DNA of 33,325 bases, from contig JAEULD010000352.1 in NCBI GenBank assembly GCA_016792765.1, positions 1-33,325 on the forward strand, read 5' to 3'. The notes below the pieces were generated by a model. It did no database searches, was not told where the DNA came from, and saw nothing but the letters and a program-made list of their open reading frames with translations. The DNA is from Candidatus Odyssella sp. Lineage in GTDB: Bacteria > Pseudomonadota > Alphaproteobacteria > Bin65. Shown in pieces: positions 3,688 through 29,501 of this stretch. The translations under genes were made by a program, and so were the position numbers. Each line of letters opens with the position of its first letter. The first letter of the stretch is position 1.

Positions 3688-3688
3688 T

Positions 3689-5276: not shown

Positions 5277-5291
5277 CGTCGCGCCCGCTTC

Positions 5292-5336: not shown

Positions 5337-5359
5337 CGCACTTGTTGCGGCAAAATCAG

Positions 5360-5405
5360 CCTCATCCTGAGGTGCGCGCCTTTTTTGGGCGCGCCTCGAA
5401 GGATG
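5360..5405. repeat. Intergenic palindromic repeat, copy 2 (inverted)
   Basis: This is the inverted partner of copy 1: it begins with CCTCATCCTGAGG and ends with CCTCGAAGGATG, so 5292-5336 and 5360-5405 can fold into one long stem. Its own centre holds GCGCGCC, six T residues and GGGCGCGC, a second hairpin. Sited downstream of both convergent flanking genes, it could act as a bidirectional terminator or mRNA stabiliser; that role is inferred. Confidence 0.75.
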
Positions 5406-5452
5406 ACCGCACGTACAGCGCGGGCGCGTTGTCTCCTAACGCCGTCCGCCTA

Positions 5453-6822: not shown

Positions 6823-7524
6823 TCAGGCGGCGAGGTAGGCGCGGCGCAGCTCGTCCTTATACTGCAGCGCGTTGGCGGGGCCGTCATGGACGATGCGGCC
6901 GGTTTCCATGACGCAGCCGCGATCGGCGACGGCGAGCGCCGCATGCGCGTTCTGCTCGACGAGCAGGATGGTGGTGCCGTCGCGCCGCAGGGCGGCGATC
7001 GCGGCGAAGATCTCCGCCGCGATCACCGGCGCGAGGCCCATGCTCGGCTCGTCGAGCAGCAGCAGCCGCGGCTCGGCCATCAGCGCGCGGCCGATCGCCA
7101 GCATCTGCTGCTGACCGCCCGACAGCGTGCCGGCCGGGGAATCGCGCCGCTCGCGCAGCACCGGGAACATCGCGTAGACGCGCTCGATGCCGCGCGCGGC
7201 CGCGGCGCGCGAGAGCGTGTAGGCGCCGAGGCGCAGATTGTCCTCCACCGAGAGCACGGTGAAGACCTGGCGGCCCTCGGGCACCTGGGCGATGCCGAGG
7301 CGCACGCGGCGGTGCGCGGGCACGGTCGTGATGTCCTCGCCCCGGAAGATCACGGCGCCGCCGCTGGCGCGGTGCGTGCCGGAGATCGCGTTGATCAGCG
7401 TCGTCTTGCCCGCCCCGTTGGCGCCGACGAGCGCCACGGTCTCGCGTTCCTGGAGCGCGAGGCCGACGCCGTGCAGCGCCTGCACGCGGCCGTAATGGCT
7501 GGTGAGGGCGCGGATCTCAAGCAC
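6823..7524 (-). CDS. livF: Branched-chain-type ABC transporter ATPase, LivF-like (system 1)
   Basis: The product has 233 residues, the length of LivF. It shows Walker A (GANGAGKTT, about residue 34-42), the LivF-type 'VPEGRQVFTVLSVEDNLRLGA' segment, the ABC signature LSGGQQQ, Walker B (RLLLLDEPSMGLAP) and the switch His in LLVEQNAHAAL. It is a cytoplasmic ATP-hydrolysing subunit. The GTG start at 7522-7524 overlaps the end of livG by 8 bases. It is last of five genes. Confidence 0.93.
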   Translation of the reverse strand: MLEIRALTSHYGRVQALHGVGLALQERETVALVGANGAGKTTLINAISGTHRASGGAVIFRGEDITTVPAHRRVRLGIAQVPEGRQVFTVLSVEDNLRLGAYTLSRAAAARGIERVYAMFPVLRERRDSPAGTLSGGQQQMLAIGRALMAEPRLLLLDEPSMGLAPVIAAEIFAAIAALRRDGTTILLVEQNAHAALAVADRGCVMETGRIVHDGPANALQYKDELRRAYLAA

Positions 7525-8305
7525 GGCGGCGCTCCTCGGACGGCGCCGCCTCGGCGCCGAGATAGGCGGCGACGACCTCGGGATGGCGCTGCACGTCGGC
7601 CGGCGCGCCCTCGACGAGCACGCGGCCCGAGACCAGCACGAGCACGCGCTCGGAGATTCCCATCACCATGCGCATGTTGTGCTCGATGAGGACGACGGTG
7701 ACGCCGGTCTCGGCGATCGCCCGCAGCACGCCCACCATCTCTTCGGCCTCGCCGGCGTTGAGGCCCGCGGCCGGCTCGTCGAGCAAGAGCAGACGCGGCT
7801 TGCTGGCCATGGCCCGCGCCACTTCGAGACGCTTGAGCGCGCCGTAGGGAAGCGATCCGGCCTCGGCATCGCGATAGCGCCCGAGGCCGAGGCGCTCCAT
7901 GAGCGCGGCCGCATCAGCGCGGCACGCTTTTTCGGCGGCGCGGAAACGGCCGAGCCGCGCGATCGCCGGCAGGAGGCCGGACCTCAGATGCCGGTGCGCG
8001 CCGACCATGACGTTCTCGACCGCGCTCATGTTGAGGAACACCTGCGGCGTCTGGAACGTGCGCGCGAGGCCGTGGCGCGCCAGCAGGTGCGGCGGCTGGC
8101 CGGTGACGTCTTCGCCGGACAGGAAAACGCGGCCCGCCGAAGGCCGGTAGACGCCGCTGATGAGGTTGAACAGCGTCGTCTTCCCGGCGCCGTTCGGGCC
8201 GATCAGCGCGAAGATCTGCCGCGGCGCCACGGCGAAGCTCACCTCGGCGACGGCGGTCACGCCGCCGAAGCTCTTGCTCACCTGCTCGAGGCGCAGCGCG
8301 CTCAC
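7517..8305 (-). CDS. livG: Branched-chain-type ABC transporter ATPase, LivG-like (system 1)
   Basis: The product has 262 residues, with Walker A (GPNGAGKTT), a LivG-type 'LARTFQTPQVFLNMSAVENV' segment, the signature-like LPYGALKRLE, Walker B (RLLLLDEPAAGLN) and 'VVLIEHNMRMVMGISERVLVL'. The start is taken as GTG at 8303-8305, which overlaps the livM stop and gives MSALRLEQVSKSFGG, the normal LivG beginning. The frame stays open further upstream inside livM, but that stretch does not look like part of an ATPase. Confidence 0.93.
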   Translation of the reverse strand: MSALRLEQVSKSFGGVTAVAEVSFAVAPRQIFALIGPNGAGKTTLFNLISGVYRPSAGRVFLSGEDVTGQPPHLLARHGLARTFQTPQVFLNMSAVENVMVGAHRHLRSGLLPAIARLGRFRAAEKACRADAAALMERLGLGRYRDAEAGSLPYGALKRLEVARAMASKPRLLLLDEPAAGLNAGEAEEMVGVLRAIAETGVTVVLIEHNMRMVMGISERVLVLVSGRVLVEGAPADVQRHPEVVAAYLGAEAAPSEERRRA

Positions 8306-9252
8306 GGCCGCCGCCCGACGAGCCGCGCCAGCGTCGGCACCAGGCCGCGCGGCATGAAAATCATCGTCGCCATCAGCACGATGCCGAACACCAGCGATTC
8401 GTAGTCCTTGAACACGGTCAGGAGCTGCGGCAGCGCGGTGAGGATCGCGGCGCCCACGACCGCGCCGTAGGTGGACGCCATGCCGCCGAGCACGACCATC
8501 GTGACGAGCTCGATGGAGTGGAGGAAGCCGACCTTGCCGGGCGTGATGAAGCCGCCATAGTGCGCGGTGAGGCTTCCGGCCACGGCCGCGAGAACCGCCG
8601 AGACCACGAAGATCAGCAGCTTGGCCCGCGCGATATCGACTCCCATCGCTTCGGCCGCGACCTCCGAGCCGTGGATCGCCCGCAGCGCGCGCCCGAGCGG
8701 CGAATCGATGAGGTTGAACGCCAGCCAGACCGTGGCGATCAGCAGCGCGCCGACGATCCAGTACCACATCTTCTCGCCCTGGAGCGCGGCGCCGAACACG
8801 CCGAGCGGCGCCACCGGCATGCCGTCGGGCCCGCCGGTCAGGCGTTCTTCGGTCGTGATCACGACCGCGATGATGATGCCGAGCCCGAGCGTGGCCATCG
8901 CGAGATAATGGCCCCTGAGCCGCAGGATCGGCCGGCCGAGCGCGAGCGCGAGCACGCCGACCAGCGCGGCCGCCGCGACGAGCGACACCAGCGACGGCCA
9001 GCCGTAATTCGTGGTGAGAATGGCCGACGCATAGGCGCCGAGCCCGAAGAATCCGGCGTGGCCGAGGCTGATCTGCCCGGCGAATCCGATCAGCAGGTTG
9101 AGCCCGACGCAGACGATCGCGTTCAAGCCGATGAGGATCGCGACGTCGTAGAAGTAGCGGTTGGGCATCGCCAGCGGGAGCACCGCCACGACGAGCGCGA
9201 GCACGGCGAGCCCGCCATGGCGCCCCTGCAGCAATGCCATCGCCCGGCCCAT
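8302..9252 (-). CDS. livM: Branched-chain-type ABC transporter permease, LivM-like (system 1)
   Basis: The product has 316 residues and about 9-10 membrane helices. It carries the typical LivM stretch 'LNLLIGFAGQISLGHAGFFGLGAYA' and the cytoplasmic EAA-like loop 'GRALRAIHGSEVAAEAMGVD'. The start ATG (9250-9252) overlaps the livH stop as TGATG. A second in-frame ATG at 9238-9240 is an alternative. With LivH it forms the membrane channel. Confidence 0.93.
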   Translation of the reverse strand: MGRAMALLQGRHGGLAVLALVVAVLPLAMPNRYFYDVAILIGLNAIVCVGLNLLIGFAGQISLGHAGFFGLGAYASAILTTNYGWPSLVSLVAAAALVGVLALALGRPILRLRGHYLAMATLGLGIIIAVVITTEERLTGGPDGMPVAPLGVFGAALQGEKMWYWIVGALLIATVWLAFNLIDSPLGRALRAIHGSEVAAEAMGVDIARAKLLIFVVSAVLAAVAGSLTAHYGGFITPGKVGFLHSIELVTMVVLGGMASTYGAVVGAAILTALPQLLTVFKDYESLVFGIVLMATMIFMPRGLVPTLARLVGRRP

Positions 9253-10124
9253 CACACGCGCTCGGCGCTGGCTTTGCCGAACAGGCCGCCCGGCATGAAG
9301 ACCAGCACGGCCAGGATGATGACGAAGGCGATGACGTCCTTGTAGGCCGAGGAGAGGTATCCGGCGCCGAGGGCCTCGGCGAGGCCGAGCAGCAGGCCGC
9401 CGGCGATGGCGCCGACGCCGCTGCCGAGGCCGCCGAGCATGGCGGCCGCGAAGCCCTTGAGGCCGACCATGATGCCGACATCGAACGACGTGAGCGTGAT
9501 CGGCGAGATCAGCACGCCGGCGACGGCGCCGAGCAGCGCCGAAAGACCGAAGCTCAGCAGCAGGATGAAGCGCACGTTGATGCCCACGAGCTGCGCCGCG
9601 TTGCGGTTGTTGGCGGCGGCGAGCATCGCCTTGCCGAGCTTGGTGCGGCCGAAGAAGGCGCTGAGGCCGACGACGACCGCGACCGACGCGCCCATGACCC
9701 ACAGCGACTGCGGCAGGATCGTCGCCCCCGCGACCGCGATCGGCTGCTCGCCGGTGAACGGCGGCACGGTGTGGAACTGCTTGCCGAACAGGAGCTGCGC
9801 CACGCCGCGGATCGCGATCGAGGCGCCGATCGTGATGATGATGAGCGTCACCACGGGGGCGCGGCGCGCCGGCTCGATCGCGAATTTCTCGAGCAGCAGG
9901 CCGATCGCGACCCCGGCCGCGACGGCGACCGCGACGGCGAGCGGCAGCGGAACGCCGGCCGCGACGAGGAAGGAGGCGGACATGCCGCCCGCCATCACGA
10001 ACTCGCCCTGCGCGAAATTGATGACGCCGCTGGCGTTGTAGATGATGGCGAAGCCGAGCGCCACCAGCGCATAGGTGGCGCCCACGGTGAGGCCGGAGAA
10101 GACGAATTGCAGCAGTTCCGCCAT
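9252..10124 (-). CDS. livH: Branched-chain-type ABC transporter permease, LivH-like (system 1)
   Basis: The product has 290 residues and about 8 membrane helices. Hallmarks are 'VFSGLTVGATYALVALGFAIIYNASGVINFAQGEFVM' near the start and 'GKAMLAAANNRNAAQLVGINV' as the coupling loop. It sits 64 bases after the binding-protein gene. That gap holds a perfect hairpin (10151-10172). It is the second membrane subunit of transporter 1. Confidence 0.93.
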   Translation of the reverse strand: MAELLQFVFSGLTVGATYALVALGFAIIYNASGVINFAQGEFVMAGGMSASFLVAAGVPLPLAVAVAVAAGVAIGLLLEKFAIEPARRAPVVTLIIITIGASIAIRGVAQLLFGKQFHTVPPFTGEQPIAVAGATILPQSLWVMGASVAVVVGLSAFFGRTKLGKAMLAAANNRNAAQLVGINVRFILLLSFGLSALLGAVAGVLISPITLTSFDVGIMVGLKGFAAAMLGGLGSGVGAIAGGLLLGLAEALGAGYLSSAYKDVIAFVIILAVLVFMPGGLFGKASAERV

Positions 10125-10150
10125 CGCGCCGTTCCTCGGCCGGCGCGAAG

Positions 10151-10172
10151 GGCGGCGCCTCGCGGCGCCGCC
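10151..10172. promoter_or_regulatory. Hairpin between binding-protein gene 1 and livH
   Basis: GGCGGCGCC and GGCGCCGCC form a perfect 9-bp stem with a TCGC loop. An outer pair (GGCGCG at 10142-10147, CGCGCC at 10177-10182) can extend it. It lies after the binding-protein stop and has no T-run, so I read it as a partial attenuator or mRNA-stabilising stem rather than a full terminator. The second Liv system has an analogous stem. Confidence 0.6.
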
Positions 10173-10188
10173 GCGGCGCGCCGATCCG

Positions 10189-11352
10189 CTATTTCACGAG
10201 CGTCCACTCGCCCTTCTTCACCTCGAGCATGCGGAACGCCGAGAGATCGAGCCCCATGTGGTCGGTCGGCGACATGTTGACGATCCCCGCCGTGCCCACG
10301 AAGCCCTTGGTCGTCTCCAGCGCGTCGCGCAGCTTGGCCTTGTCGGTGGTCTTCGCGCGCTTGAGCGCATCGACCGCGAGGAACAGGCCGTCATAGGCGC
10401 TGCCGCCGAAGGTCGAGACGTCGGAGCCGTACTTCGTCTCGTAGTCTCTCTTGTAGCCGACCACGACGGCTTTCTGCGGATCGTTGGCCGGAAGGATCTC
10501 GGCGACCAGCAGCGCGGCCGCGGGCAGGCGCACGCCTTCCGCCGCTTCGCCGGCCAGCTTGATGAATTCCTTCGAGGCGACGCCGTGCGACTGATACAGC
10601 GGCATCGTCATGCCGAGCTGGCGGAAATTCTTGGTGACGATCGCGGGGCCCTGGCCGAAGCCGGGATTGACGACGGCCTGAACGCCCGCCGTGTTCTTGA
10701 TCTTCGTGAGCTGGGCGGTCATGTCGCTGTCTTTGGCGCCGTAGCTCTCGTCGGCGACGATCGAGATGCCGTATTTCCCCGCGACCTTCAGGCACTCCTG
10801 GCGCATCGAGCGGTCGAAGCCGCCGGCGCCGGCGATCATCCCGATCTTGGCGATGCCGCGCGCCTTCATGTCTTCGAAGATCTTCTCGCACGCCATGCGG
10901 TCGGTGTGCGGGGTCTTGAACACCCACTTCTTGACCGGCTCGATGATGACCACCGCGCCGGCGAGGGAAATGAACGGCATCCCGGCCTGCTCGGCCAGCG
11001 GAACCGCCGCCATCGTGGTTCCCGTCGTGGTGCCGCCGACGATGATGTCGACCTTGTCCTGGTCGATGAGCCGCTTGGCGAAGGTGCGCGCCTTGTCGCT
11101 GTCGCCGGCATCGTCGTAGACGACGAGCTCGATCTTGCGCCCGATCACGCCGCCGGCCGCGTTGAGCTTTTCGACATAGAGCTTCAGCGTCTTCTCCTCG
11201 GGGTCGCCGAGGAAGGCCGCCGGGCCGGTGACCGACAGGAAGCTTCCGATCTTGATCGGCGGCGCTTCGGCCGCGGCCGGCGCCGCAATCAGGGCGCCCG
11301 CGGCGAGCGAGAGGGCGGCGGACATGAAGGCGCGAATCGGCAGGGATCGCAT
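10189..11352 (-). CDS. ABC transporter periplasmic binding protein, Peripla_BP_6 type (system 1)
   Basis: The product has 387 residues. A Sec signal peptide (core AFMSAALSLAAGALIAAPAAA) is followed by 'IKIGSFLSVTGPAAFLGDPEEKTLKLYVEKLNAAGG', the standard opening of LivJ-like proteins. Later segments (VDIIVGGTTTGTTMA, SLAGAVVIIEP, YDGLFLAVDALKRA) fit the two-lobe fold. The ATG at 11350-11352 has a good GGAGGAAC ribosome site, so the longer in-frame upstream extension is discarded. In aromatic degraders such proteins often bind benzoate-like acids. That ligand is inferred here from the bcr context and a shared operator-like site 72 bases upstream. Confidence 0.9.
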   Translation of the reverse strand: MRSLPIRAFMSAALSLAAGALIAAPAAAEAPPIKIGSFLSVTGPAAFLGDPEEKTLKLYVEKLNAAGGVIGRKIELVVYDDAGDSDKARTFAKRLIDQDKVDIIVGGTTTGTTMAAVPLAEQAGMPFISLAGAVVIIEPVKKWVFKTPHTDRMACEKIFEDMKARGIAKIGMIAGAGGFDRSMRQECLKVAGKYGISIVADESYGAKDSDMTAQLTKIKNTAGVQAVVNPGFGQGPAIVTKNFRQLGMTMPLYQSHGVASKEFIKLAGEAAEGVRLPAAALLVAEILPANDPQKAVVVGYKRDYETKYGSDVSTFGGSAYDGLFLAVDALKRAKTTDKAKLRDALETTKGFVGTAGIVNMSPTDHMGLDLSAFRMLEVKKGEWTLVK

Positions 11353-11417: not shown

Positions 11418-11443
11418 TATTTCGGTATTCTATTGCTTATTTG
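11418..11443. promoter_or_regulatory. Putative Rrf2 operator, site A (upstream of liv system 1)
   Basis: The core GGTATTCTATTGCT (11424-11437) matches the local dyad GGTA-N6-TACC on the left and weakly on the right (TGCT), and is followed by TATTTG. Half-sites match TAAATAGGTA at 7/10 and its complement at 7/10. A further partial half (GCTTATTTACG) sits just left of it at 11407-11417, so this may be a double site. It lies 66-91 bases before the binding-protein start. Confidence 0.5.
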
Positions 11444-11493: not shown

Positions 11494-11958
11494 CTATTTG
11501 GCGGCGCGGACGACCGCGCGCAGTTCGGGTGCGGCGCCCGGCGCGGCGCCGGTGTTGCGCTTGATCTGGTTGACCAGCGTCTCGATCGTGATCGAATCGA
11601 GCGTGGCGCGCGCGATCTGCTCGATCTCGTTCAGCACCGGATGAAGGCTGCGCCCGATGTCGGTGCGCGCGCCGCGATCCGCGGCATCCGAAGCCGGGGC
11701 GCCGATGTCTTCGAACATCTCGATGATGTCGAGCAGCGTCGTGCGCTTGGCGTTGCCGGAGAAGCGGTAGCCGCCGCCGACCCCGCGCGTCGATTCGACC
11801 AGGCCGGCGCGCCCGAGGTCGCGCAGCACCTTGGCGAGGTGATTGTTGGAAATTCCGTACTTCTCCGCAATCTCGGCCGCAGACGATTGCCGCTCCGGAT
11901 CGAGCGCCAGCTCGAGGACCGAATACAGCGCGAACTGCGTGGCCTTCTGGAGTTTCAT
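11494..11958 (-). CDS. Rrf2-family transcriptional regulator without cysteines
   Basis: The product has 154 residues, the normal Rrf2 size. The N-terminal winged helix-turn-helix (about 1-75) is clear: MKLQKATQFALYSVLELA, 'SSAAEIAEKYGISNNHLAKVL' as helix-turn-helix, then GLVESTRGVGGGYRF as the wing. After it comes 'TLLDIIEMFEDIG', the usual dimerisation helix. In IscR, NsrR and RirA the next loop carries three Cys that bind an Fe-S cluster. Here it reads APASDAADRGARTDIGRS, and the entire protein has no Cys. It must sense something else or act through a partner. It is downstream of a GNAT gene with a 26-base gap. I infer that it controls the aromatic regulon. Confidence 0.88.
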   Translation of the reverse strand: MKLQKATQFALYSVLELALDPERQSSAAEIAEKYGISNNHLAKVLRDLGRAGLVESTRGVGGGYRFSGNAKRTTLLDIIEMFEDIGAPASDAADRGARTDIGRSLHPVLNEIEQIARATLDSITIETLVNQIKRNTGAAPGAAPELRAVVRAAK

Positions 11959-11984: not shown

Positions 11985-12470
11985 TCAGATGAGCGCTTTT
12001 TCGAGCTGAATGAAGGGGCCGGCCATCATCCCCTGGCTGCGGAAGAATCGGAGGTTGAGCAGGTCGTCGCGAGACAGCATCGTGCGCAGCTTCCGCACGC
12101 CGGCCTTCTTGAAGCAGTCGACGATCGCGTCGACGAGCATCGTGCCGATCCGGCGCAGCCGCACGTCGGCATCCACTTCGGCCGCCAGCACCCAGCCGCA
12201 GGGCACCGACCCGAATTCCCACGCGCGGATCTCGCCGACGATGAAGCCCACCAGCTTCGAGCGCTCCTCGGCGACGAGTATGAAGTGCGTCTTGCGGCGC
12301 CGGCCGTAGTCGGCGAACAGCTCGCGCCAGTATTGCGGCTTCGCCACGCCGGTGTTGGCCGCATCGAGCGCCACGACCGCGCGGTGATCGCGCGGCATCA
12401 GCGGCCGAACCCGTATCCCGGACGGAGCCCGCGCCTCGGGAGCGCGGCGGCTCTGGCTTCGGCTGCTCAT
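11985..12470 (-). CDS. GNAT-family N-acetyltransferase
   Basis: The product has 161 residues. After a basic, Arg-rich N terminus it follows the GNAT pattern: IRVRPLMPRDHRAVVALDAAN, FILVAEERSKLVGFIVGEI, a strand with GWVLAAEVDADVRLRRIGTMLVDAIVDC (acetyl-CoA loop R-R-I-G-T), then a final segment with LRFFRSQGMMAGPFIQLEKAL. The ATG at 12468-12470 has a GAGAAGG ribosome site; an upstream in-frame TTG is less likely. It is the first gene before rrf2 and has operator site B 16-41 bases upstream. A protein-lysine acetyltransferase role acting on CoA ligases is possible but unproven. Confidence 0.8.
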   Translation of the reverse strand: MSSRSQSRRAPEARAPSGIRVRPLMPRDHRAVVALDAANTGVAKPQYWRELFADYGRRRKTHFILVAEERSKLVGFIVGEIRAWEFGSVPCGWVLAAEVDADVRLRRIGTMLVDAIVDCFKKAGVRKLRTMLSRDDLLNLRFFRSQGMMAGPFIQLEKALI

Positions 12471-12485: not shown

Positions 12486-12511
12486 CAAATTGGTATTCTC
12501 GTACCGTATTT
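12486..12511. promoter_or_regulatory. Putative Rrf2 operator, site B (upstream of GNAT-rrf2)
   Basis: The core GGTATTCTCGTACC (12492-12505) is a perfect GGTA-N6-TACC dyad, flanked left by CAAATT (left half 8/10 to TAAATAGGTA) and right by GTATTT. It lies just upstream of the minus-strand GNAT gene that precedes rrf2, as expected for autoregulation. Site C lies 75 bases away for the divergent operon. Confidence 0.6.
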
Positions 12512-12586: not shown

Positions 12587-12612
12587 AATATTGGTACTAT
12601 AATGCCTATTTA
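12587..12612. promoter_or_regulatory. Putative Rrf2 operator, site C (DUF2249 operon), overlapping a -10 like TATAAT
   Basis: The core GGTACTATAATGCC (12593-12606) continues into TATTTAGG; the right half TGCCTATTTA matches 9/10. The sequence TATAAT at 12598-12603 inside the core is a perfect sigma-70 -10 hexamer, though no strong -35 is visible 17 bases upstream. Binding here would block the promoter of the gene that starts at 12650. Confidence 0.6.
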
Positions 12613-12649
12613 GGCGAGACGGTCGCCGCACACGTATCGGAGCCGCATC

Positions 12650-13450
12650 ATGGCCGCATCGAGGGTTACCGCGGAGACGACGATCGCCCGCGCGCTGGCG
12701 GCGGATCCCGATCTCGTCGACCGTCTGATCGCGTTCAATCCGACGTTCCGCAAGCTCAAGAACCCCATCCTGCGGCGGACGATGGCGCGGCTCGCGAACT
12801 TCGCCGACGCGGCGCGGGTGGCGGGCGTGCCGCTCGAGGCGCTGCTCGCCGTGGCGAACGGCGCGGCGCCGCCGCCGATCGAGCAATCGGCCGAGCCGCC
12901 GGCCGACGCGGGTGCCGCCGACGCGCCCGGCTGGGTCGCGGCGCTCGATCGCGCCGCGGCGACGCCGCTCGACGTCCGGCCCGTGCTGGCCTCCGGCCGG
13001 GACCCTTACGCGACCATCATGGGCGTCGTCGCCAAGCTGCAGCCCGGCGCCGTCTTGATCCTGGATGCGCCGTTCGATCCCGCCCCGTTGCGCCGCGTTC
13101 TGGCGGGGAAAGGTTTCGTCGATCATGCGGAGTGCCTGGCGCCCGACCATTGGCGGATCTACTTCCGGAACGCGGGCCGCGCCCCGGCGCCGGCCGCGCC
13201 CGCCGCCGGCGCCCGCCTCTGGCGCGACGGCGGCGTCGCGCACATCGACGTGCGCGGCCTCGAGCCGCCCGAGCCGATGCTCGCGATCCTGCGCCTGCTC
13301 GAGCAGCCCGACTGCGGCCCGAGCGTGATCGTCCACCACGAGCGCGAGCCGGTGTTCCTCTACCCCGAGCTGGCCGAGCGCGGATGGCGGCACGAGATCG
13401 TCGACGGCGACGCCGGGGAAGTGCGCCTGCGGCTGACGCGCTCCGCATGA
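12650..13450 (+). CDS. DUF1858 plus two DUF2249 domains protein
   Basis: The product has 266 residues and is soluble. Residues about 8-68 match the DUF1858 pattern (DPDLVDRLIAFNPTFRKLKNP, then RRTMARLANFADAARVAGV). Residues about 104-180 and about 199-262 are two DUF2249-like units, each opening with LDVRP or IDVRGLEPPEPM and containing a hydrophobic strand (AVLILDAPFDPAPL, VIVHHEREPVFLYPELAERG) and a final beta strand. Such proteins occur next to hemerythrins, NnrS and nitrite/NO genes in denitrifiers, where they are thought to help nitrosative-stress or redox handling. Its stop overlaps the next ATG (ATGA), so the two are probably translated together. Confidence 0.8.
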   Translation: MAASRVTAETTIARALAADPDLVDRLIAFNPTFRKLKNPILRRTMARLANFADAARVAGVPLEALLAVANGAAPPPIEQSAEPPADAGAADAPGWVAALDRAAATPLDVRPVLASGRDPYATIMGVVAKLQPGAVLILDAPFDPAPLRRVLAGKGFVDHAECLAPDHWRIYFRNAGRAPAPAAPAAGARLWRDGGVAHIDVRGLEPPEPMLAILRLLEQPDCGPSVIVHHEREPVFLYPELAERGWRHEIVDGDAGEVRLRLTRSA

Positions 13451-14733: not shown

Positions 14734-14754
14734 CAAAGGGAAAGAGAGAAAACC

Positions 14755-15054
14755 GTGTCCGATCTCGTCGACCGTGCGCGCGACGCGCTGAAATCCGTCG
14801 TCGATCCCGAGGCGGGGCTGAACATCGTCGACCTCGGCCTGGTCTACGACGTCGCGATCGAGAACGGACGGCTGGTGGCGCTGATCACGTTCACGACCGA
14901 GGCCTGCCCGGTCGGGCCGCGCCTCGCCGCGGAGGCCGAGCGCGCCCTGGCGGCCGTGGCCGGCCCCGCCCCGGTCGAGATCCGCGTCACCTTCGATCCG
15001 CCCTGGACGCCGGAGCGCATCACCCCGGACGGCCGCGCGCTGCTCGGCCGATAG
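14755..15054 (+). CDS. MIP18/DUF59-family Fe-S assembly factor
   Basis: The product has 99 residues, the size of a stand-alone DUF59 (SufT/PaaD-type) domain. It shows LKSVVDPEAGLNIVDLGLVYDVAIENG and the signature Cys in TTEACPVGPRLAAEAERAL, then FDPPWTPERIT, which is a typical family ending. These proteins help mature Fe-S clusters. The start is GTG at 14755-14757 behind AAGGGAAAGAGAG. It is the third gene of its operon. Bcr, KorAB and the ferredoxin in this window are all Fe-S proteins, which makes a cluster-assembly role fitting. Confidence 0.87.
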   Translation: MSDLVDRARDALKSVVDPEAGLNIVDLGLVYDVAIENGRLVALITFTTEACPVGPRLAAEAERALAAVAGPAPVEIRVTFDPPWTPERITPDGRALLGR

Positions 15055-15084
15055 CGGCATTTGCGCGCGGGCGGCGGCGCCCGG

Positions 15085-15114
15085 TTGACCCTCGCGGCCC
15101 GAAACAGGTATTTT
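15085..15114 (+). promoter_or_regulatory. Predicted sigma-70-like promoter for the hemerythrin operon
   Basis: TTGACC (15085-15090) is followed after 18 bases by TATTTT (15109-15114). The -10 overlaps the left edge of operator site D, which gives a simple repression geometry. The gene starts 32 bases downstream of the -10. Confidence 0.4.
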
Positions 15115-15134
15115 GGTACTGTCATACCTATTTA
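15109..15134. promoter_or_regulatory. Putative Rrf2 operator, site D (upstream of hemerythrin)
   Basis: The core GGTACTGTCATACC (15115-15128) is a perfect GGTA-N6-TACC dyad and its right half TACCTATTTA matches the consensus 10/10. The left half reads TATTTTGGTA. It ends 11 bases before the hemerythrin ATG, so it covers the expected start of transcription. Confidence 0.65.
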
Positions 15135-15145
15135 GGCACCCCGCC

Positions 15146-15640
15146 ATGGAGTTCGCGCGCCAGGTTCCGGCCTGCATTCATCGGGAGCACCTCGAGACGC
15201 TCGCGCTGCTCGAGCGGATCGAGGCGGCGCTGGCGAAGGGCAAGGCCGCGCCGGCGCCGGGCGATGCCGGCTGGTCGCGCCTTCTCCGCGAGTTCGACGC
15301 CAATCTCGCCAACGAGATCGGGCGCCATTTCGGATTCGAGGAGCAGGAGCTGTTTCCGCTTCTCGCCGACGGCGGCGACGGCGACATCGCCGCGCTGCTC
15401 GCGGACGAGCACGCGGCCATTCTCGCGCTGGCCAAGCGCATGATCCCGGCCCTGCGCGCCTTCGCGGCGCACGGCGCCGCCGGGGATTGGCCGGCCCTGC
15501 GCGAGATGGCGCTGGAGCTGATCGAACGGCAGGTGGCGCATATCCAGAAGGAGGAGATGTCGCTGCTGCCGGTGCTTGAGGACGTTCTCGACGCCGAGCG
15601 CGATCGGGCGCTGCTCGACCGCTATCTCGCGGCGGCGTGA
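15146..15640 (+). CDS. Hemerythrin HHE domain protein
   Basis: The product has 164 residues. The di-iron ligand pattern runs along a four-helix bundle: CIHREHLETLALLERIEAAL (helix A His), EIGRHFGFEEQELFPLL (helix B His and Glu), LLADEHAAILALAKRM (helix C His) and 'RQVAHIQKEEMSLLPVLED' (helix D His/Glu). Such proteins bind O2 or repair Fe-S clusters after NO damage. The ATG at 15146-15148 is chosen because the longer frame would begin inside operator site D. The protein may protect the oxygen-sensitive Bcr and Kor enzymes. Confidence 0.87.
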   Translation: MEFARQVPACIHREHLETLALLERIEAALAKGKAAPAPGDAGWSRLLREFDANLANEIGRHFGFEEQELFPLLADGGDGDIAALLADEHAAILALAKRMIPALRAFAAHGAAGDWPALREMALELIERQVAHIQKEEMSLLPVLEDVLDAERDRALLDRYLAAA

Positions 15641-15672
15641 ACGGGCAGAGGGAAGGAACAGGGAGCAAATCC

Positions 15673-21741: not shown

Positions 21742-22578
21742 TCAGGCGGCTTTGCGTTCGAGCATGGAAAGCTTCTCGTGGCGGAAAGCGCCCCACAGCG
21801 CGGCGCCGATCGCGCCGGCATAGATCGAGTCGGGGCTGCTCTTGATCTCCACCGTGATCTTCTCCTTGACGCAGGTCTCGCGCATGGCCGCGACGAGGCC
21901 GCCGTCGAGCGCGAGCCCGCCGGTCATCATCACCACGCCGTCCTTGGTGCCGGCCGACTTGAGCAGCTTCGCGAGGCGATCCGCCATCGAGATGTGGATG
22001 CCCTTGAGGATGTTGGCGGCCGAGATGCCGCGCGACACCATGTTGATCACGTCGGTTTCGGCGAGCACCGCGCAGATGCCGCTGACCTTCTCGGGCGACG
22101 CGCCCTGCTGCGAGAGCACGCCGATCTCGTCCTGGGCGATGCCGAGATAGCGCGCGATGTTCTCGAGGAACTGGCCCGAGCCCGAGGCGCACTGGCTCGT
22201 CATCTTGTAGCCGACCACCTTGCCGCGCTCGTCGATGCGGATCGCGCGGCCGTGCAGCGCGCCGACGTCGAGCACCGCGCGCGACGCGGGATCGAGCTCG
22301 ATGGCGCCGCGGGCGTGCGTCGTCATGGAATAGAAGTGGCCGGTCTGGAAGCCGAGGCTCTCGCCCTCGCCGGTCGTGGCGCAGTAGGCGATGTCGTCGC
22401 GCTTCAGGCCCGCCGCTTCGAGCGACTGGTCGTAGGCTTCGGCCGCGAGCTTCAGCGGATCGCGCTGGCGCACGCGGTCGCAGCGCTTCGAGATCAGACG
22501 GGTGCTCGGGCCGTCGACGGCGTAGAGCACCGTCTTGACCGCACCCGTTCCCACGTCGATTCCGGCAGTGAATACCAT
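21742..22578 (-). CDS. bcrD: Benzoyl-CoA reductase subunit D (ATPase/activator half)
   Basis: The product has 278 residues, typical for BcrD (BadG). It belongs to the ASKHA-type ATPase activators (FldI/HgdC relatives): phosphate-1 loop GIDVGTGAVKTVLY, VLDVGALHGRAI, then TSQCASGSGQFLE and 'SGICAVLAETDVIN'. These contain the two Cys that, with those of BcrA, hold the bridging [4Fe-4S] cluster. The C-terminal GGLALDGGLVAAM segment is the adenosine motif. With BcrA it drives ATP-dependent electron transfer into BcrBC. It follows bcrA by 11 bases. Confidence 0.95.
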   Translation of the reverse strand: MVFTAGIDVGTGAVKTVLYAVDGPSTRLISKRCDRVRQRDPLKLAAEAYDQSLEAAGLKRDDIAYCATTGEGESLGFQTGHFYSMTTHARGAIELDPASRAVLDVGALHGRAIRIDERGKVVGYKMTSQCASGSGQFLENIARYLGIAQDEIGVLSQQGASPEKVSGICAVLAETDVINMVSRGISAANILKGIHISMADRLAKLLKSAGTKDGVVMMTGGLALDGGLVAAMRETCVKEKITVEIKSSPDSIYAGAIGAALWGAFRHEKLSMLERKAA

Positions 22579-22589
22579 GGCCCTCTCCC

Positions 22590-23903
22590 TCAATGCACGA
22601 CGGCGCGGCGCGCGAACTCGGCGGCGCCGAGCGCGCCGGTGTAGATCGAGTCGGGATTGATGTTGATCGCGACCTTGCCGTAGTTCTCCTCGATCAGCTT
22701 TCTCAACTCGGTCACCGCCGCCTCGTTCTTGGCGACGCCGCCGGTGAACGTGAACTGATCCTTGACTCCGCCGGACCGCGACAGGATCGACATCGCGCGC
22801 AGGATGATGGCGCGGTGCAGGCCGGCGATGATGTCCTCGCGCTTCTCGCCGAGCGCCAGGCGGTCGCGCAGCTCGGCGCCGGCGAACACGGTGCAGGTGG
22901 AGTTGATGCGTACCGTGCGCGTGGCCTGCATCGCGAGCGGCCCCAGCTCGTGGAGGCCGAGGTTCATCTCGTCCGCGATGTAGCCGAGGTAGCGCCCGCA
23001 GCCGGCGGCGCAGCGGTCGTTCATCTGGAAGTTCTCGACGATGCCGGCCGCGTCGACCTGGATCGCCTTCGTATCCTGCCCGCCGATGTCGAGCACCGTG
23101 CGCGTTTCGGGATACATCAGGTGGGCGCCGAGCCCGTGGCACAGGATCTCGGAGCGGATGTGCTCCTTGGAGAACGGAAGCGTCACGCGCCCGTAGCCGG
23201 TGCCCACGACGTAGGTTTCCTCGAGCGGGATCGCGAGCGAGGCACGCACCGCCTGCGCGACGTCCGCGCTCTGGCCGGCGAGCGAGGGCATGAAGCCGAT
23301 CGCGCGATCGAGCGCGCGCAGAAGCTTGCCGCTCTCGTCGTCGGCCGGCGGCCGGTTCTCGACCTCGATGATCGAGCGGTCGTAGATGTTCAGCAGCAGG
23401 TCGAACGGGAACTTGTAGCGGCCCGCCACCTCCTCGCCGATGGCCATGAAGCGCGAGCCGGCGATGTCGCGGAAGAAATCGGACTTGCGCTTGGCGCCCT
23501 TCGCGAACAGCGCCGGGGCATCCTTGCGGAGCTGCGCGAACACCTCGGCCAGCGCATCGCGGATCTTGCCTTGCACATCGCGGAAGCGCTCGCCCTGCGC
23601 GTTGTCGCCGCAGACCCGCTCGAGGTCGCCGATCTGCTCGAGATACTGCTCGAGCCGGAACGCGCGCTCGAGCTCGGCCAGGAACTGCTCGAGCAGGCCG
23701 GCGCCGAACGCAATGGCGCCGAGGCCGCGGCGGAACAGCGTGAAGCGCGTGTCGATCAGGGCTTCGTGCTTGGCGACGCGCGTCGCCGTGTCGTAGTTCG
23801 AGCGCGAGTTGGTGATGCCGCGGCCGAGAATCGCGCTGTTCTCGTCCATCACCACCGCCTTGGTGGTGGTCGATCCGAGATCGATGCCGATGAAAGTGCG
23901 CAT
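22590..23903 (-). CDS. bcrA: Benzoyl-CoA reductase subunit A (ATPase/activator half)
   Basis: The product has 437 residues, longer than BcrD by an insert of about 140 residues after the first ATPase lobe, as in known BcrA (BadF). Motifs are [13 protein letters not shown] (about 6-18), [25 protein letters not shown] and [13 protein letters not shown] (cluster cysteines), and [12 protein letters not shown] near the end. It hydrolyses ATP and passes one electron at a time to the BcrBC active-site half. It lies 9 bases after bcrB. Confidence 0.96.
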
Positions 23904-23912: not shown

Positions 23913-25250
23913 CTACTGCATCGCCGCCGCGGGCGCGGCGCCGGGCATTGCCGCGGCCGGCGGCGCGATGCCGCTGCGGCGCTTCTGCTCGATCATCTGC
24001 AGGTAGCTCTCGAGCCGGTTCTTGACGTTCGCCGGCGAGAAGTAGCGCGGATCGACGAGGTCGGTCTCGATGAACGCCGCCGGCCGGCCGGTGCGCCGCT
24101 CGATCTCGCGCAGGATCAGGAGCTGGCCGGCCGAGAAGCTGTTGCAGCTCTTGATCGAATTGATCAGCAGGCCGTCGGCCTCGTATTCGTTCACGTACTT
24201 CTCGATGAGGTCGATGCGCGACGGCAGGTTCCGGTTCGTGTAGCAGCCGAGGCAGTAGTCGGCGAGCGATTCGAGCGGATGGTCGGGATCGTGCCGGAAG
24301 CCGAGATCGTAGACGCCGCCCACCTTGGTGTAGGTGCTGGCGACGACGACGGCGCCCTCGTCGTAGAACATCTTCCAGAAGTCGCGGAAGCTCGTCCAGT
24401 TGGGCGGGCCCTCGACGACGAGGCGGTACTTCTCCTCCTTCATCTCGCCGTCGGGCGTGATCGGGCCCTGGCCGTTCGCGATGCGCTGCTCGATCTCGCC
24501 GCGCAGCAGGCGGTAATACTCGGTTGCGTCGGGCGTGCCGCGAAACGCGGTGAAGATCGGGCCGACGTAGTAGACGCCGCCGAAATACGCGTCGATCGGC
24601 GACGGCTTGTTCTTGGCGCTCTGCAGCACCCAGACGAAATGCGACTCCGCCTTGGCCGATTCGCGCAGGATCTCGCGCAGGCGGTCGATGTCGAACTTCA
24701 CGCCGCTGACGCGCTCGAGGCCGGGGATGATGACCTCCTTGAGCTGCTTGACGATGTAGTCGCGCATGTTCTTCGTGGCGTGCCCGTCGCCCTCGTAGGG
24801 CACGTGCAGCATCAGCGTCTCGCACTTGTACTGCTCGCGCACGAGCTCGAACCACTTCATGAACGTGAAGCAGCCCGTGTAGGACAGCAGCAGCGCGTCG
24901 GGCGCCGGCAGCGGATGGCCGTCGGGGCCGAGATTGCCCTTGGCGATCATGCCGAGATCGGCCTTCACGTAGGTGCAGACGTCTTCGGAGTGGCCGCGCT
25001 TCTCGGCTTCCATGATGTAGCCGCCGGTCTTCTTGCGCATGCCGTTCTGGATCGCGTTGATCTCGGGCAGGTTGTTGACGAGATCGAAGCACATGATGAG
25101 TTCGTTGAGGTTGCCCGGAACGAACGTGGAGACGACCTTCCGGCCCTGCTCCTTCGCGCTCGCCAGCTTCGCGTAATTGCCCGAGATCATCTCCTTCTGC
25201 TTCAGCATCGAAGCTTCTTTGACGACTTCCTTGGGTGCGCGCGCGTTCAT
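23913..25250 (-). CDS. bcrB: Benzoyl-CoA reductase subunit B (active-site half)
   Basis: The product has 445 residues and belongs to the HgdB/FldC-like dehydratase-reductase family. Conserved cysteines that can bind a [4Fe-4S] cluster lie in LLSYTGCFTFMKW, DYCLGCYTNRN and SIKSCNSFSAGQ. It also shows EGPPNWTSFRDFWKMFYDEGAVVV, a segment strongly kept in class I Bcr. The last about 25 residues are Ala/Pro-rich (IAPPAAAMPGAAPAAAMQ) and look dispensable. Its ATG overlaps the bcrC stop (ATGA). With BcrC it reduces the benzoyl-CoA ring to cyclohexa-1,5-diene-1-carbonyl-CoA. Confidence 0.96.
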   Translation of the reverse strand: MNARAPKEVVKEASMLKQKEMISGNYAKLASAKEQGRKVVSTFVPGNLNELIMCFDLVNNLPEINAIQNGMRKKTGGYIMEAEKRGHSEDVCTYVKADLGMIAKGNLGPDGHPLPAPDALLLSYTGCFTFMKWFELVREQYKCETLMLHVPYEGDGHATKNMRDYIVKQLKEVIIPGLERVSGVKFDIDRLREILRESAKAESHFVWVLQSAKNKPSPIDAYFGGVYYVGPIFTAFRGTPDATEYYRLLRGEIEQRIANGQGPITPDGEMKEEKYRLVVEGPPNWTSFRDFWKMFYDEGAVVVASTYTKVGGVYDLGFRHDPDHPLESLADYCLGCYTNRNLPSRIDLIEKYVNEYEADGLLINSIKSCNSFSAGQLLILREIERRTGRPAAFIETDLVDPRYFSPANVKNRLESYLQMIEQKRRSGIAPPAAAMPGAAPAAAMQ

Positions 25251-26416
25251 TGGACGCTCCATAGCTTGATCGAATCGGCGAAAGTGCCGGCCTGCTCGCG
25301 GATGGGCTGCATCTGCCCGGAGTTCTCGGCGTACTTGAACGCCACGAACGGAATCTTGTGCTCGGCGAGGACGCGCTGCAGCATCGGGCGTTCGAGCAGC
25401 GCGGGATCGCAGAAGCTGGGACAGGCGAAGATCACCCCCTCGGCGCGGTTCTTCCGCACCGAGTCCACCAGCCACATGCCCTTTTCCTTCTCGGTGTCTT
25501 CGTACTTCGCCGCGGTGTGCGCCGAGTTGTGGAGATAGGCGTGGGCGAGGTTGGCGAGCGGATCGCCCTCGACGGCGACGTCGGACTGCTCCCACCGGTT
25601 GACCAGCAGGAAGTCGTCGTCGACGATGTAGCAGCCCGACAGCTCGATCGACTTGACGAGATTGAGCGGCGGCTGCTCGCAGAACGCGCCGGTGACGACG
25701 ATGCGGCAATTGTCGCGCTTGCGCGCATCGGCCTTGTCCGCGGCGTCGAGATACTCGCGGAGCATGCGATTGTGCTCCTCGACCGCGAGCGTCATGCCGG
25801 CGCGCATCAGGAGATAGACGTCGGCCGCCGGCGCCTTCCAGGGCTGCGCCGCGCGGAACGCGTAGACCTCGCGCACGAGGCGGCGGTTCTCGTTGAAGAG
25901 CACGATCGAGGCCCGGATCTCGTCGTCGGAGATCCGGCGGCCGGCGAGCTTGCCGAGGCCCTCGCGCAGCTCGTTGAGCTCGTTGATGTAGAACGTTCCG
26001 CCGATGTCGTCGCGATAGTTCTGCGGCACGTCGAAGTATTTCGCGTAGACGTTCGGGAACATCACCTTCCACATGCCCGACAGGTTGCGGACCACGTCGC
26101 AGATGCTGGGGAAGAGCATCCCGTCGACGAAATCGAGCCGTTTCGTGACGGCGAGCTCGATGGTCGAGCGCGGGATGCGGCAGATGTAGCTCTGATAGTA
26201 GGCGTCGCCGTGGATCACCTCGAGCTGATCGCCGCCGCCGAAAATGCCGAGCGGCAGGCCGCCGCCGGCGTGGATGATCTCGCGCGGCACGTAGAACGGC
26301 ATGTGCCCCACGACCTTGCGGCCGGGCTTCGCGGCCTTCCATTCGCGCGCGTAGCCGAAGTTCAGGTCTTCGTAGAGTGCGCTGCAGCGCTCGTTGATTT
26401 CACGCAGGGTCGTCAT
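25247..26416 (-). CDS. bcrC: Benzoyl-CoA reductase subunit C (active-site half)
   Basis: The product has 389 residues. It follows the BcrC (BadD) pattern: KVVGHMPFYVPREIIHAGGGLPLGIFGGGDQLEVIHGDAYYQSYICRIPRS is split here only for length, and later FVDGMLFPSICDVVRNLSGMW and GVIFACPSFCDPALLERP provide the cysteines. It shares the HgdA/B-like fold with BcrB. The ATG at 26414-26416 overlaps the dch stop (TGATG). The order bcrC-bcrB-bcrA-bcrD is that of Thauera and Magnetospirillum. Confidence 0.96.
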   Translation of the reverse strand: MTTLREINERCSALYEDLNFGYAREWKAAKPGRKVVGHMPFYVPREIIHAGGGLPLGIFGGGDQLEVIHGDAYYQSYICRIPRSTIELAVTKRLDFVDGMLFPSICDVVRNLSGMWKVMFPNVYAKYFDVPQNYRDDIGGTFYINELNELREGLGKLAGRRISDDEIRASIVLFNENRRLVREVYAFRAAQPWKAPAADVYLLMRAGMTLAVEEHNRMLREYLDAADKADARKRDNCRIVVTGAFCEQPPLNLVKSIELSGCYIVDDDFLLVNRWEQSDVAVEGDPLANLAHAYLHNSAHTAAKYEDTEKEKGMWLVDSVRKNRAEGVIFACPSFCDPALLERPMLQRVLAEHKIPFVAFKYAENSGQMQPIREQAGTFADSIKLWSVQ

Positions 26417-27186
26417 CAGCGGTGCTCCCAGTTCGCCGCACGCTTCTCGAGGAAGGAATTCAGCCCTTCCAGCGCGTCGCGTGTGGCCATGACGCCGTCG
26501 AGATAGAGGCGCTCGACCGCGCCGATTCGGCGGCGGAAAATATCGGCCAGCTCGCCGCGCGCCGCGACGTTGGCGAAGCGGATGGCGGCGGCGCTTTTCG
26601 GCATCAGATGCCGATCGAACCACGCCGCGGCGGCGGCCTCGGGATCGTCGGCGACCGCGGCCGCCAGGCCGAGCCGCAGCGCTTCGGCCGCATCGACGCT
26701 GCGGCCGGAGACGAGGAGATCGTCGGCGGGGCCGGCGCCGATGCGGGCGGGCAGCAGGCACGACGCCGCCGGCGCGATCACGCCGAGCGAGATCTCCGGC
26801 TGGCCGAGCTTCGCGTCGGGCGCCGCGAAGATCAGGGAGCCGGCGGCGGCCAGCTCGAGGCCACCGCCCAGGCACTGGCCGCGCACCGCCACCAGGATCG
26901 GCGCCGGAAAGTCGAGCATCGACTGCAGCAGCGCGTGGAAGCCCGCGAGCATCGACGCGCACTTCGCGGGCAGATGCTCCTCCACGCTGGCCCCGAACGA
27001 GAAATGCGGGCCTTCCGCGTCGAGCAGCACGGCCGCCAGATCCGGGCGCTCGCGGTGCTGGCGCAGCGCCGTGGCCAGCGCGCCGATCATCTCGGCGTCG
27101 AGCACGTTGGCCTTGGGCCGCGCGAGCCGGAGGCGCAGCAGGCGCCCGCCGCGATCGAACCAGACCTTGAGCGGCGCGCCGCTCAT
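26416..27186 (-). CDS. dch: Cyclohexa-1,5-diene-1-carbonyl-CoA hydratase
   Basis: The product has 256 residues and is a crotonase-fold enzyme. Oxyanion-hole segments are FSFGASVEEHLP (first) and AVRGQCLGGGLELAAAGSLIFAAPDAKLGQPEISLGVIAP (second), the latter with the family's GGGLEL and the Glu of QPEI. It adds water to the dienoyl-CoA made by Bcr, giving 6-hydroxycyclohex-1-ene-1-carbonyl-CoA. The choice of Dch over general enoyl-CoA hydratase rests on its place between oah and bcrC, with ATGA/TGATG overlaps on both sides. Confidence 0.92.
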   Translation of the reverse strand: MSGAPLKVWFDRGGRLLRLRLARPKANVLDAEMIGALATALRQHRERPDLAAVLLDAEGPHFSFGASVEEHLPAKCASMLAGFHALLQSMLDFPAPILVAVRGQCLGGGLELAAAGSLIFAAPDAKLGQPEISLGVIAPAASCLLPARIGAGPADDLLVSGRSVDAAEALRLGLAAAVADDPEAAAAAWFDRHLMPKSAAAIRFANVAARGELADIFRRRIGAVERLYLDGVMATRDALEGLNSFLEKRAANWEHR

Positions 27187-28313
27187 GCGCGCGCCCTGTT
27201 CTTGGGCATCACGCTCTCGGTGAGCCGGTCGGTCCACGGCGTGCCCTTGGCGAGCGCCTGCCGCAATCCGACGAAATCGATCTCGCGGTCGTCCTTGGTT
27301 CCTTCGTTGAACGCGCGGAAGCCGGCGCGGGCCTCGGTCATCATGTTGAGGGCGAGCCAGGCCCGGGCATCCTCCTTGTTGCGGTTCCACGCCTCGAGCT
27401 TGGGCTTGCGCAGCTCCTCGATCGTCTTGGTCGTGCAATCGGGGAACGTGAGCAGCAGCTTGGCGCAGAGCTCCTCGATCTTGGCGTCGAGCAGCGAGAG
27501 GTCGATCGTGCCGCGCGCCATCAGGGCCTTGCCCTCGGCGAGCGCCGCGCCGGTCTTCGCCTCGCCATAGGCCGGGCGGCCGTATTCGTCGACGACGAAC
27601 TGCGTCTCGACGAGCGGGTTGGCGACGAACTTTCCGTCCACCTTGAGGGCCGGCACGACCGCCGTCAGCAGGCCCCAATTGAGCGCCTTGTGCGCCGAGA
27701 ACGGCTCGCACAGGACGCAGGCGATCATCGCGCGCTCGGAGCCGACGATCACCGGCAGGAAATCGGTGGCGCCGCCGATCGGCGCCGAGCCGTGCTTCGG
27801 GCCCGCCTGGCCGAACCGCGCGAGGTCCTGCGCCACCGAGAAGTCGCAGGCCATGCCGATCTCCTGGCCGCCGCCGATGCGCATGCCGTTCACGCGGCAG
27901 ATCACCGGCTTGTCGCAGGCCAGGATCGCCGAGACCATGTCGTTGAACACCCGCATGTACTGGCGGTACTCCTGCGGGTTGCCGGCGTAGTATTCGGCGT
28001 ATTCCTTCGTGTTGCCGCCGGTGCAGAAGGCCTTGTCGCCGGCGCCGGTGAAGACCACGGCGTTCACGTCGCGCGCGTTCGAGGCGGCGCGGAAGGCGTG
28101 GATCACGCCTTTCGCCATGTCGGTGGTGTAGGAATTGAACTGGCTCTGGTTGTCGAGAACGATCCAGGCGTTGTAGAGGCCGGGCACGATCGCGCCGTTC
28201 GGCAGCCGCGCGGGGCGCTTCTCGAAGCGTACGCCCGGAACCGAATAGTCGGCGACGAGGTCGTGGTTCTTGAGTTCGGCGGGCTCGGCGCGGCGTGCGG
28301 GTTCGGCGTTCAT
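27183..28313 (-). CDS. oah: 6-oxocyclohex-1-ene-1-carbonyl-CoA hydrolase (ring opening)
   Basis: The product has 376 residues, the right length for Oah, which is a long crotonase. Typical Oah stretches are LKNHDLVADYSVPGVRFEKRP, VVFTGAGDKAFCTGGNTKEYAEYYAGNPQEYRQYMRVFNDMV (oxyanion loop), then RVNGMRIGGGQEIGMACDF and 'RFGQAGPKHGSAPIGGATDFLP'. It hydrates and cleaves the ring to 3-hydroxypimeloyl-CoA in the cytoplasm. It follows had by 19 bases and overlaps dch by 4. Together with had it marks the Thauera-type route, not the cyclohexanecarboxylate-type route of Rhodopseudomonas. Confidence 0.95.
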   Translation of the reverse strand: MNAEPARRAEPAELKNHDLVADYSVPGVRFEKRPARLPNGAIVPGLYNAWIVLDNQSQFNSYTTDMAKGVIHAFRAASNARDVNAVVFTGAGDKAFCTGGNTKEYAEYYAGNPQEYRQYMRVFNDMVSAILACDKPVICRVNGMRIGGGQEIGMACDFSVAQDLARFGQAGPKHGSAPIGGATDFLPVIVGSERAMIACVLCEPFSAHKALNWGLLTAVVPALKVDGKFVANPLVETQFVVDEYGRPAYGEAKTGAALAEGKALMARGTIDLSLLDAKIEELCAKLLLTFPDCTTKTIEELRKPKLEAWNRNKEDARAWLALNMMTEARAGFRAFNEGTKDDREIDFVGLRQALAKGTPWTDRLTESVMPKNRARA

Positions 28314-28332: not shown

Positions 28333-29406
28333 TCAGGCGGGGACGAGCACGGCGCGGCGCGAAAGCTCGTGGCGGTGCGCCGCCGCGAAAACGTCGTTGA
28401 TCCGCTGCAGCGGATGCTTCTCGACGAACGGCTTGAGCTCGATCTTGCGGTCGAGCACGAGATCGAGCGCGCCGGGATAGAGCTCGGGCGGGCAGCCCCA
28501 GTTGCCGATGGCGCGCGCGTCGAACGCCATCAGGTTCGACAGGCGGATCTCGACGCGATCCATGGTGAAGCCGACGACCGAGAGCGTCGCGCCGTGCGTC
28601 AGCAGGCCGAACGCCGTCGCCTGGCCGGCCGCGGTGCCCGAACACTCGAACACGAACCACTCGGTCTGGGGCAGGTTCTTCTCCTTGGCGAAGGCCTGCA
28701 CCGCGGCGCGCAGCGCCTTCTGGTCGTGGGCGCGCGCGTTGAGCGCGAGCGACGCGACCTTGCCCATCGCCGCGAGCTTCGCGTCGTCGACGTCGACCGC
28801 GACGACGGTGGCGCCCATCGCCTTGGCGACCTGCGCGGCGTAGCCCCCGACCCCGCCGATGCCGACGACGATGGCGAGGCTGCCGGGCCAGACGCCGGCG
28901 CGCGTCGCCGCCTGATACGGCGTCGTGACCGCGTCGGCGATCACCGAGAGTTCCGCCAGCTCGAGGCCGGCCTTGGCGAGGCGGCCTTCGTCCACCGCGC
29001 AGAGCCCGCGCGACGGCACCACCACGTGGCTCGCGAACCCGCCGTGAATGTCGTTTCCGGGCATGCGCTGCTTGCGGCAGATCATCGGCCTGCCGCGCTT
29101 GCAGAGCGCGCATTCGCCGCACGGCATCACCGACGGGACGACCACCGCCTTGCCGAGCCAGGAGCCGGCGCCGGCGCCGGGGCCGGCGGCGATCACGCGG
29201 CCGGCGATCTCGTGGCCGAGCGCCAGCGGGAGCGGGTGATTGGTCCGGACGCCGTCGTAATAATAGCCGAGATCGGTGTGGCAGACCCCGCAGCCGGCGA
29301 TCTCGACGGTGACGTCGCCGGGCGCTTCCGGCGCCGCGTCGAATTCGGCCCGCACCAGCGGCGCCCCGACCCCCGTCATGAGCCAGCGATGAGCTGCGAT
29401 CGCCAC
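28333..29406 (-). CDS. had: 6-hydroxycyclohex-1-ene-1-carbonyl-CoA dehydrogenase
   Basis: The product has 357 residues and is a zinc-type medium-chain dehydrogenase. Catalytic-zinc ligand Cys39 lies in GCGVCHTD and His65 in LGHEIAG. Structural-zinc cysteines are 96, 99, 102 and 110. The NAD-binding loop is [12 protein letters not shown]. It oxidises the 6-hydroxy intermediate to the 6-oxo compound. I place the start at the GTG at 29404-29406, because GAGGAGG sits directly before it. The longer frame to 29445 begins without such a site. It is the first gene of the minus-strand bcr run and lies opposite korA. Confidence 0.93.
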
Positions 29407-29475
29407 GGCCGTTCCTCCTCGGCGTCCTGGGCCGTCGTGCCGCATTCGCTTCTTCTTGACGGCCCTGAATTTATG

Positions 29476-29501
29476 TAATTAGGTACTGCAATGCTTATTT
29501 A
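29476..29501. promoter_or_regulatory. Putative Rrf2 operator, site E (between had/bcr and kor)
   Basis: The core GGTACTGCAATGCT (29482-29495) continues into TATTTAGG. Its left half TAATTAGGTA matches the consensus half 9/10 and its right half TGCTTATTTA 8/10. It sits about midway in the 177-base divergent gap: 70 bases from the had start and 82 from the korA start. A TTGACG at 29456-29461 is a possible -35 element toward korA, without a clear -10. Confidence 0.6.

Follow-up and report, generated by a model that had tools for sequence, protein, structure and literature searches.

The window, as the whole stretch of 33,325 nucleotides of Candidatus Odyssella sp. DNA analyzed here is called, carries a gene for an Rrf2-family regulator, badM, situated 26 bp downstream of badL on the same strand and roughly 10 kb from the bcrABCD genes at 21742-26416 (Table 1). 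BcrA, BcrB, BcrC, BcrD, Dch, Oah and Had all scored above the NCBIfam equivalog cut-offs, and these profile matches identify the window as a true class I benzoyl-CoA reductase locus, in agreement with the initial annotation of the sequence in which the regulator had been assigned to an anaerobic aromatic locus. The had-oah-dch-bcrCBAD operon is transcribed divergently from korA, and two branched-chain-type ABC transporter operons were found in the window. A second, larger GNAT gene (15637-16710) lies directly downstream of the hemerythrin gene. The edge of the window (620-6679) holds M24 peptidase, TRAP transporter (DctM and a small membrane subunit) and dienelactone hydrolase-type genes, and no BadM-type sites were found in that part.

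Table 1. Genes and predicted operators of the badLM and benzoyl-CoA reductase locus (a dot marks features without strand).
Feature	Position	Strand	Basis
Branched-chain-type ABC transporter 1 (livK1 10189-11352, livH1 9252-10124, livMG 7517-9481, livF 6823-7524), presumed BadM target	6823..11352	-	Profile matches
Predicted BadM operator 3, 24.3 bits, upstream of livK1	11418..11443	.	PWM and pattern
badM, Rrf2-family repressor, 154 aa, no Cys	11494..11958	-	Pfam/TIGRFAM match, AlphaFold2, orthologues
badL, GNAT acetyltransferase, first gene of the badL-badM pair	11985..12470	-	Pfam Acetyltransf_1
Predicted BadM operator 1, 22.3 bits, ~15 bp upstream of badL start	12486..12511	.	PWM and pattern
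Predicted BadM operator 2, 30.5 bits, between badL and divergent DUF1858/DUF2249 gene	12587..12612	.	PWM and pattern
DUF1858/DUF2249 protein, presumed BadM target, divergent from badL	12650..13450	+	
DUF59/FeS_assembly_P protein	14755..15054	+	
Predicted BadM operator 4, 29.9 bits, 11 bp upstream of hemerythrin ATG at 15146	15109..15134	.	PWM and pattern
Hemerythrin-domain protein, presumed BadM target	15146..15640	+	
bcrD	21742..22578	-	TIGR02261 above cut-off
bcrA	22590..23903	-	TIGR02259 above cut-off
bcrB (start approximate)	23913..25163	-	TIGR02260 above cut-off
bcrC	25247..26416	-	TIGR02263 above cut-off
dch, dienoyl-CoA hydratase	26416..27186	-	TIGR03189 above cut-off
oah, 6-oxocyclohex-1-ene-1-carbonyl-CoA hydratase	27183..28313	-	TIGR03200 above cut-off
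had, 6-hydroxycyclohex-1-ene-1-carbonyl-CoA dehydrogenase, first gene of the bcr operon	28333..29445	-	TIGR03201 above cut-off
Predicted BadM operator 5, 31.5 bits, between had-oah-dch-bcrCBAD and korA	29476..29501	.	PWM and pattern
korA, 2-oxoacid:ferredoxin oxidoreductase alpha (presumed electron supply)	29584..31314	+	TIGR03710 above cut-off

The badM reading frame is intact and its product, which begins MKLQKATQFALY, has no Cys among its 154 residues. Residues 3-130 matched Pfam Rrf2 at 101.6 bits (cut-off 30) and TIGR00738 was matched at 112 bits (cut-off 73). The AlphaFold2 model (mean pLDDT 89) consists of a winged helix and a long helix at residues 100-122, and the protein is presumed to be a dimer. 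The description of the gene product as a Cys-free Rrf2 protein retaining winged helix and dimer helix was thus upheld. The closest structures to the model were RsrR, IscR and CymR. The winged helix and dimer helix are shared with IscR, NsrR, RirA and RsrR (24–31% identity to IscR, NsrR and RsrR in structure alignments), but the Cys triad and any other conserved metal ligands of the sensor loop are missing from the window protein. CymR likewise has an Rrf2 fold without an Fe-S cluster (TM-score 0.85 normalised by CymR length); the score of the window protein against the NCBIfam CymR equivalog was 42.7 bits, with a cut-off of 195.

BzdR, BoxR, BadR and AadR regulate related aromatic pathways; to our knowledge these belong to protein families other than that of BadM and none of them is of the Rrf2 type. 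By listing BzdR-, BadR- and AadR-type proteins as the described regulators, the initial annotation overlooked BadM, an Rrf2-type repressor already known for such loci (PMC6191541). In R. palustris BadM represses the benzoyl-CoA reductase genes badDEFGAB, BadL is a GNAT enzyme that acetylates aminobenzoates, and acetamidobenzoates release BadM from the badD promoter (PMC6191541). Deletion of badL lowered the badDEFGAB transcript 30-fold and deletion of badM restored it, while added acetamidobenzoates bypassed BadL and distant BadL proteins complemented partially; benzoate and BadM were not acetylated by BadL homologues, and the effect of ligand on BadM-DNA binding needed 10 mM 2-acetamidobenzoate (PMC6191541).

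The window BadM is 57% identical to BadM of R. palustris PS3, in whose locus (L184) badDEFG, badM and badL are close together, and the window BadL, which contains the GNAT domain, is 48% identical to its PS3 counterpart. Judged from sequence, the window regulator is a BadM orthologue and as such a new example of an already described repressor, and by analogy we infer that the window BadL is an aminobenzoate N-acetyltransferase. The two systems share an Rrf2 repressor with an upstream GNAT gene next to benzoyl-CoA reductase genes, an operator match that extends to badD, and a sensor loop free of Cys. The window differs by its use of the oah/had/dch branch, by a pair of predicted operators at badL, and by the kor, hemerythrin and DUF1858 genes that join the predicted regulon. 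A further locus, L152, was rejected as an R. palustris-type bad cluster since badLM there is not in such a cluster; at 7661-9827 its badLM pair precedes two genes, an SDR gene and one of enoyl-CoA hydratase-like type, that resemble the badH/badI cyclohexanecarboxylate branch.

The BadM family was sampled from one-per-species genomes and relatives, which gave 165 loci (some being the same gene twice) and 126 distinct BadM sequences. The badL gene lies directly upstream of badM at 163 of these loci and at the remaining 2 the contig ends there; the genes mostly overlap or are within 60 bp of each other. None of the 126 sequences has an IscR-type Cys triad in the sensor loop, and no Cys or His in that loop is conserved across them. 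Single Cys residues are scattered through the family, chiefly at residue 67 (FCGN) or 9, the latter being the position of the only Cys in R. palustris BadM, and the N-terminal positions 8, 9 and 12 are variable. Lack of Cys from the sensor loop is therefore a family trait and not a sequence error or a local loss, which the initial annotation had proposed to settle from close orthologues. Lacking the triad is in itself nothing unusual for an Rrf2 protein, as the triad was present in 11 and absent in 15 of 26 other paralogues sampled. Across BadM there is almost no variation in the DNA-reading helix (S-x-x-H-L-A-K-V) or the wing (RG-x-GGGY-x-F-x-GN). In a tree with the same 26 proteins BadM formed one clade on a long stem branch, with moderate support (0.74) for what is a short protein, and the median tree distance from the window BadM was 1.2 to BadM sequences versus 4.5 to other Rrf2 proteins.

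Linkage of the gene to bcr elsewhere, the other point on which the initial annotation was to stand or fall, was recovered in part but is not exclusive. In a set of 61 non-redundant loci, each 15 kb or longer, bcr was found in 21 and boxC, a gene of the aerobic benzoyl-CoA pathway, in 14 (one of these has both), with neither in 27. As badLM pairs occur without bcr, the signal could be one that is not confined to anaerobic benzoate metabolism. At L056, L077 and L102 boxC lies on one side of badLM and bcr genes on the other. In a 2024 survey BadM was reported only in alphaproteobacterial contexts (PMC10803450); our scan also found badM in many Burkholderiales and Betaproteobacteria MAGs, for which binning error is possible.

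Using the 250 bp that precede badL in each of 79 non-redundant loci, of which 74 contributed, we built a symmetric weight matrix 26 bp long. The fit was seeded with one L077 site picked by eye, so the shape of the motif is not blind, and the window was excluded, making its scores out of sample. The resulting consensus, TAAATcGGTAcTatAgTACCgATTTA, is an AT-flanked GGTA-N6-TACC palindrome of 26 bp. Five strong sites were obtained in the window (Table 1), together with three overlapping motif copies of 13.9–16.9 bits at three of the five promoters, and the next score in the window was 1.9. Maximum scores in the controls were 6.7 bits for shuffled windows and 10.2 bits for 85 kb of real control DNA, and refitting on loci without bcr returned the same five sites. 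A pattern search of the 4.6-Mb draft genome, with a pattern drawn up with the window sites in view, placed every exact palindrome match within the window. One further genomic site, C203:14203, was rejected as an operator as its score was only 10.3.

The two sites between badL and the divergent gene bear out the remark that badM is autoregulated in appearance. The highest-scoring site in 19.9 kb of R. palustris PS3 was located 76–101 bp upstream of the badD ATG, inside the promoter fragment (-191 to +21) for which BadM binding has been demonstrated (PMC6191541). No operator of at least 13 bits was found before badL itself in the R. palustris loci and autoregulation is therefore not universal. 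A matrix built from box-linked loci only gave the R. palustris badD site a score of about 0, which indicates that details of the operator drift. Both the 26-bp operator and the five-promoter regulon look new, in that they were not found in the searchable literature, mostly non-subscription papers other than the two primary BadM papers.

The reading that we favor, at a probability of roughly 85%, is that the window protein is a BadM repressor that binds the 26-bp palindrome, is released by acetamidobenzoate made by BadL and represses five promoters of one locus. We infer DNA binding, the direction of control and the ligand of the window BadM by analogy with R. palustris (PMC6191541). When the BadL product is lacking, BadM would occupy the palindromes and repress the had-oah-dch-bcrCBAD operon and the divergent kor genes, the ABC transporter, hemerythrin and DUF1858/DUF2249 genes, and its own badLM. 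When aminobenzoate and acetyl-CoA are available, BadL would form acetamidobenzoate that in turn would bind BadM and cause it to leave the DNA. A separate FNR-type protein likely activates anaerobically, as AadR does in R. palustris. The DUF1858/DUF2249 and hemerythrin genes possibly serve in oxygen or Fe-S protection of benzoyl-CoA reductase. One or both of these genes recur by badLM, often with bcr and some with predicted operators, in the window (12602-15640) and at L127, L128, L130, L131, L155, L156, L159, L160, L187, L190 and L191.

Several other accounts of the regulator were weighed, and the most serious accepts the protein as a BadM orthologue but takes benzoyl-CoA, another acyl-CoA or acetyl-CoA as its effector, with BadL modifying or removing that effector or using a different amine. 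Since the published effect on DNA binding was seen only at 10 mM ligand, the true effector may differ, and the predicted regulons of Thalassospira and relatives described below, made up of acyl-CoA rather than aromatic genes, would fit an acyl-CoA-related signal. Set against this are the requirement of badL for derepression in vivo, its bypass by acetamidobenzoates in R. palustris and the failure of BadL homologues to acetylate benzoate or BadM (PMC6191541), and we consider a different effector unlikely, though well ahead of the accounts that follow. The strict pairing of badL and badM, together with the presence of CymR among the closest folds, could also be taken to mean that BadM acts via a complex with BadL and not via the BadL product, in the way that CymR works in complex with CysK. 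This is improbable given that acetamidobenzoates substitute for BadL in R. palustris and that distant BadL proteins complement partially (PMC6191541). The partner protein that the initial annotation had in mind would be the adjacent GNAT protein BadL, acting by making the ligand to which BadM responds.

That RsrR, an Fe-S protein of the Rrf2 family, is among the closest structures leaves room for an Fe-S sensor ligated atypically by few or no Cys and other residues. The chance of this is very slim, as the 126 orthologues lack a conserved Cys or His in the sensor loop and vary at positions 8, 9 and 12, and sensing of a small ligand instead of through an Fe-S cluster, which had been put forward before, is likely. 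Loss of Cys from an IscR-type gene by sequencing error or decay would have to contend with an intact frame, a strongly conserved triad-free family and an equally Cys-free BadM at L003 that is 66% identical to that of the window; the orthologues refute it and we give it practically no weight.

Neither bcr nor box genes adjoin badLM in Thalassospira profundimaris WP0211 (G098) or in G097, a MAG labelled Methylocystaceae. In these genomes the palindrome was found at 18–32 bits before genes read as methylmalonyl-CoA mutase, propionyl-CoA-carboxylase-type carboxyltransferase, propionate-CoA ligase and methylcrotonyl-type carboxylase, and also before branched-chain acyl-CoA dehydrogenase, succinate dehydrogenase, malate dehydrogenase and biotin synthase genes; other genomes of the Thalassospira-related group have it before icmF, bioB, prpE, korA-type and boxC genes, where the names mcm, carboxyltransferases, prpE, icmF, bioB, sdhA and boxC are NCBIfam best matches, mostly of fragments below the full-length cut-off, and the remaining target names are our own reading of the sequence. 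Palindromes before such genes in genomes without linked bcr are those at L238-L257 and L258-L275. Among 90 relatives of G098, at least two motif matches were found in 42 of the 48 genomes with BadM versus 0 of the 42 without, and in 13 of 19 versus 0 of 42 when the first block of 29 genomes, taken as Thalassospira, was set aside; in these counts a palindrome may count twice (once per strand), some genomes have only the badL operator, and the genomes share ancestry, so that the Fisher values for the association are too optimistic. This co-occurrence favors BadM as the binding protein in the Thalassospira group on sequence grounds and disfavors ownership of the sites by another regulator.

We see an even chance that BadM and its operator control propionyl-CoA, methylmalonyl-CoA and isobutyryl-CoA mutase, branched-chain acyl-CoA, biotin and some TCA-cycle genes in Thalassospira and related bacteria with orphan badLM, so that acetylated aminobenzoate might be a broad carbon/acetyl-CoA signal. 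4-Aminobenzoate is a precursor of folate. A comparative analysis covering 33 proteobacterial regulators makes no mention of BadM, and no paper came up when full texts, mostly of non-subscription papers, were searched for Rrf2 together with propionyl-CoA and methylmalonyl-CoA mutase; this is weak evidence of absence. The second role of BadM in acyl-CoA metabolism is a predicted one that was not found in the literature searched, the two primary BadM papers aside.

With these results a Cys-free Rrf2 protein is assigned to a family for which a partner that makes the ligand has been published, and the predicted operator and five-promoter regulon are testable. The analysis further suggests that bacteria without linked benzoate pathways have put the BadM repressor to another use in central acyl-CoA metabolism. 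If this is true, the role of the acetamidobenzoate signal would be wider than benzoate degradation.
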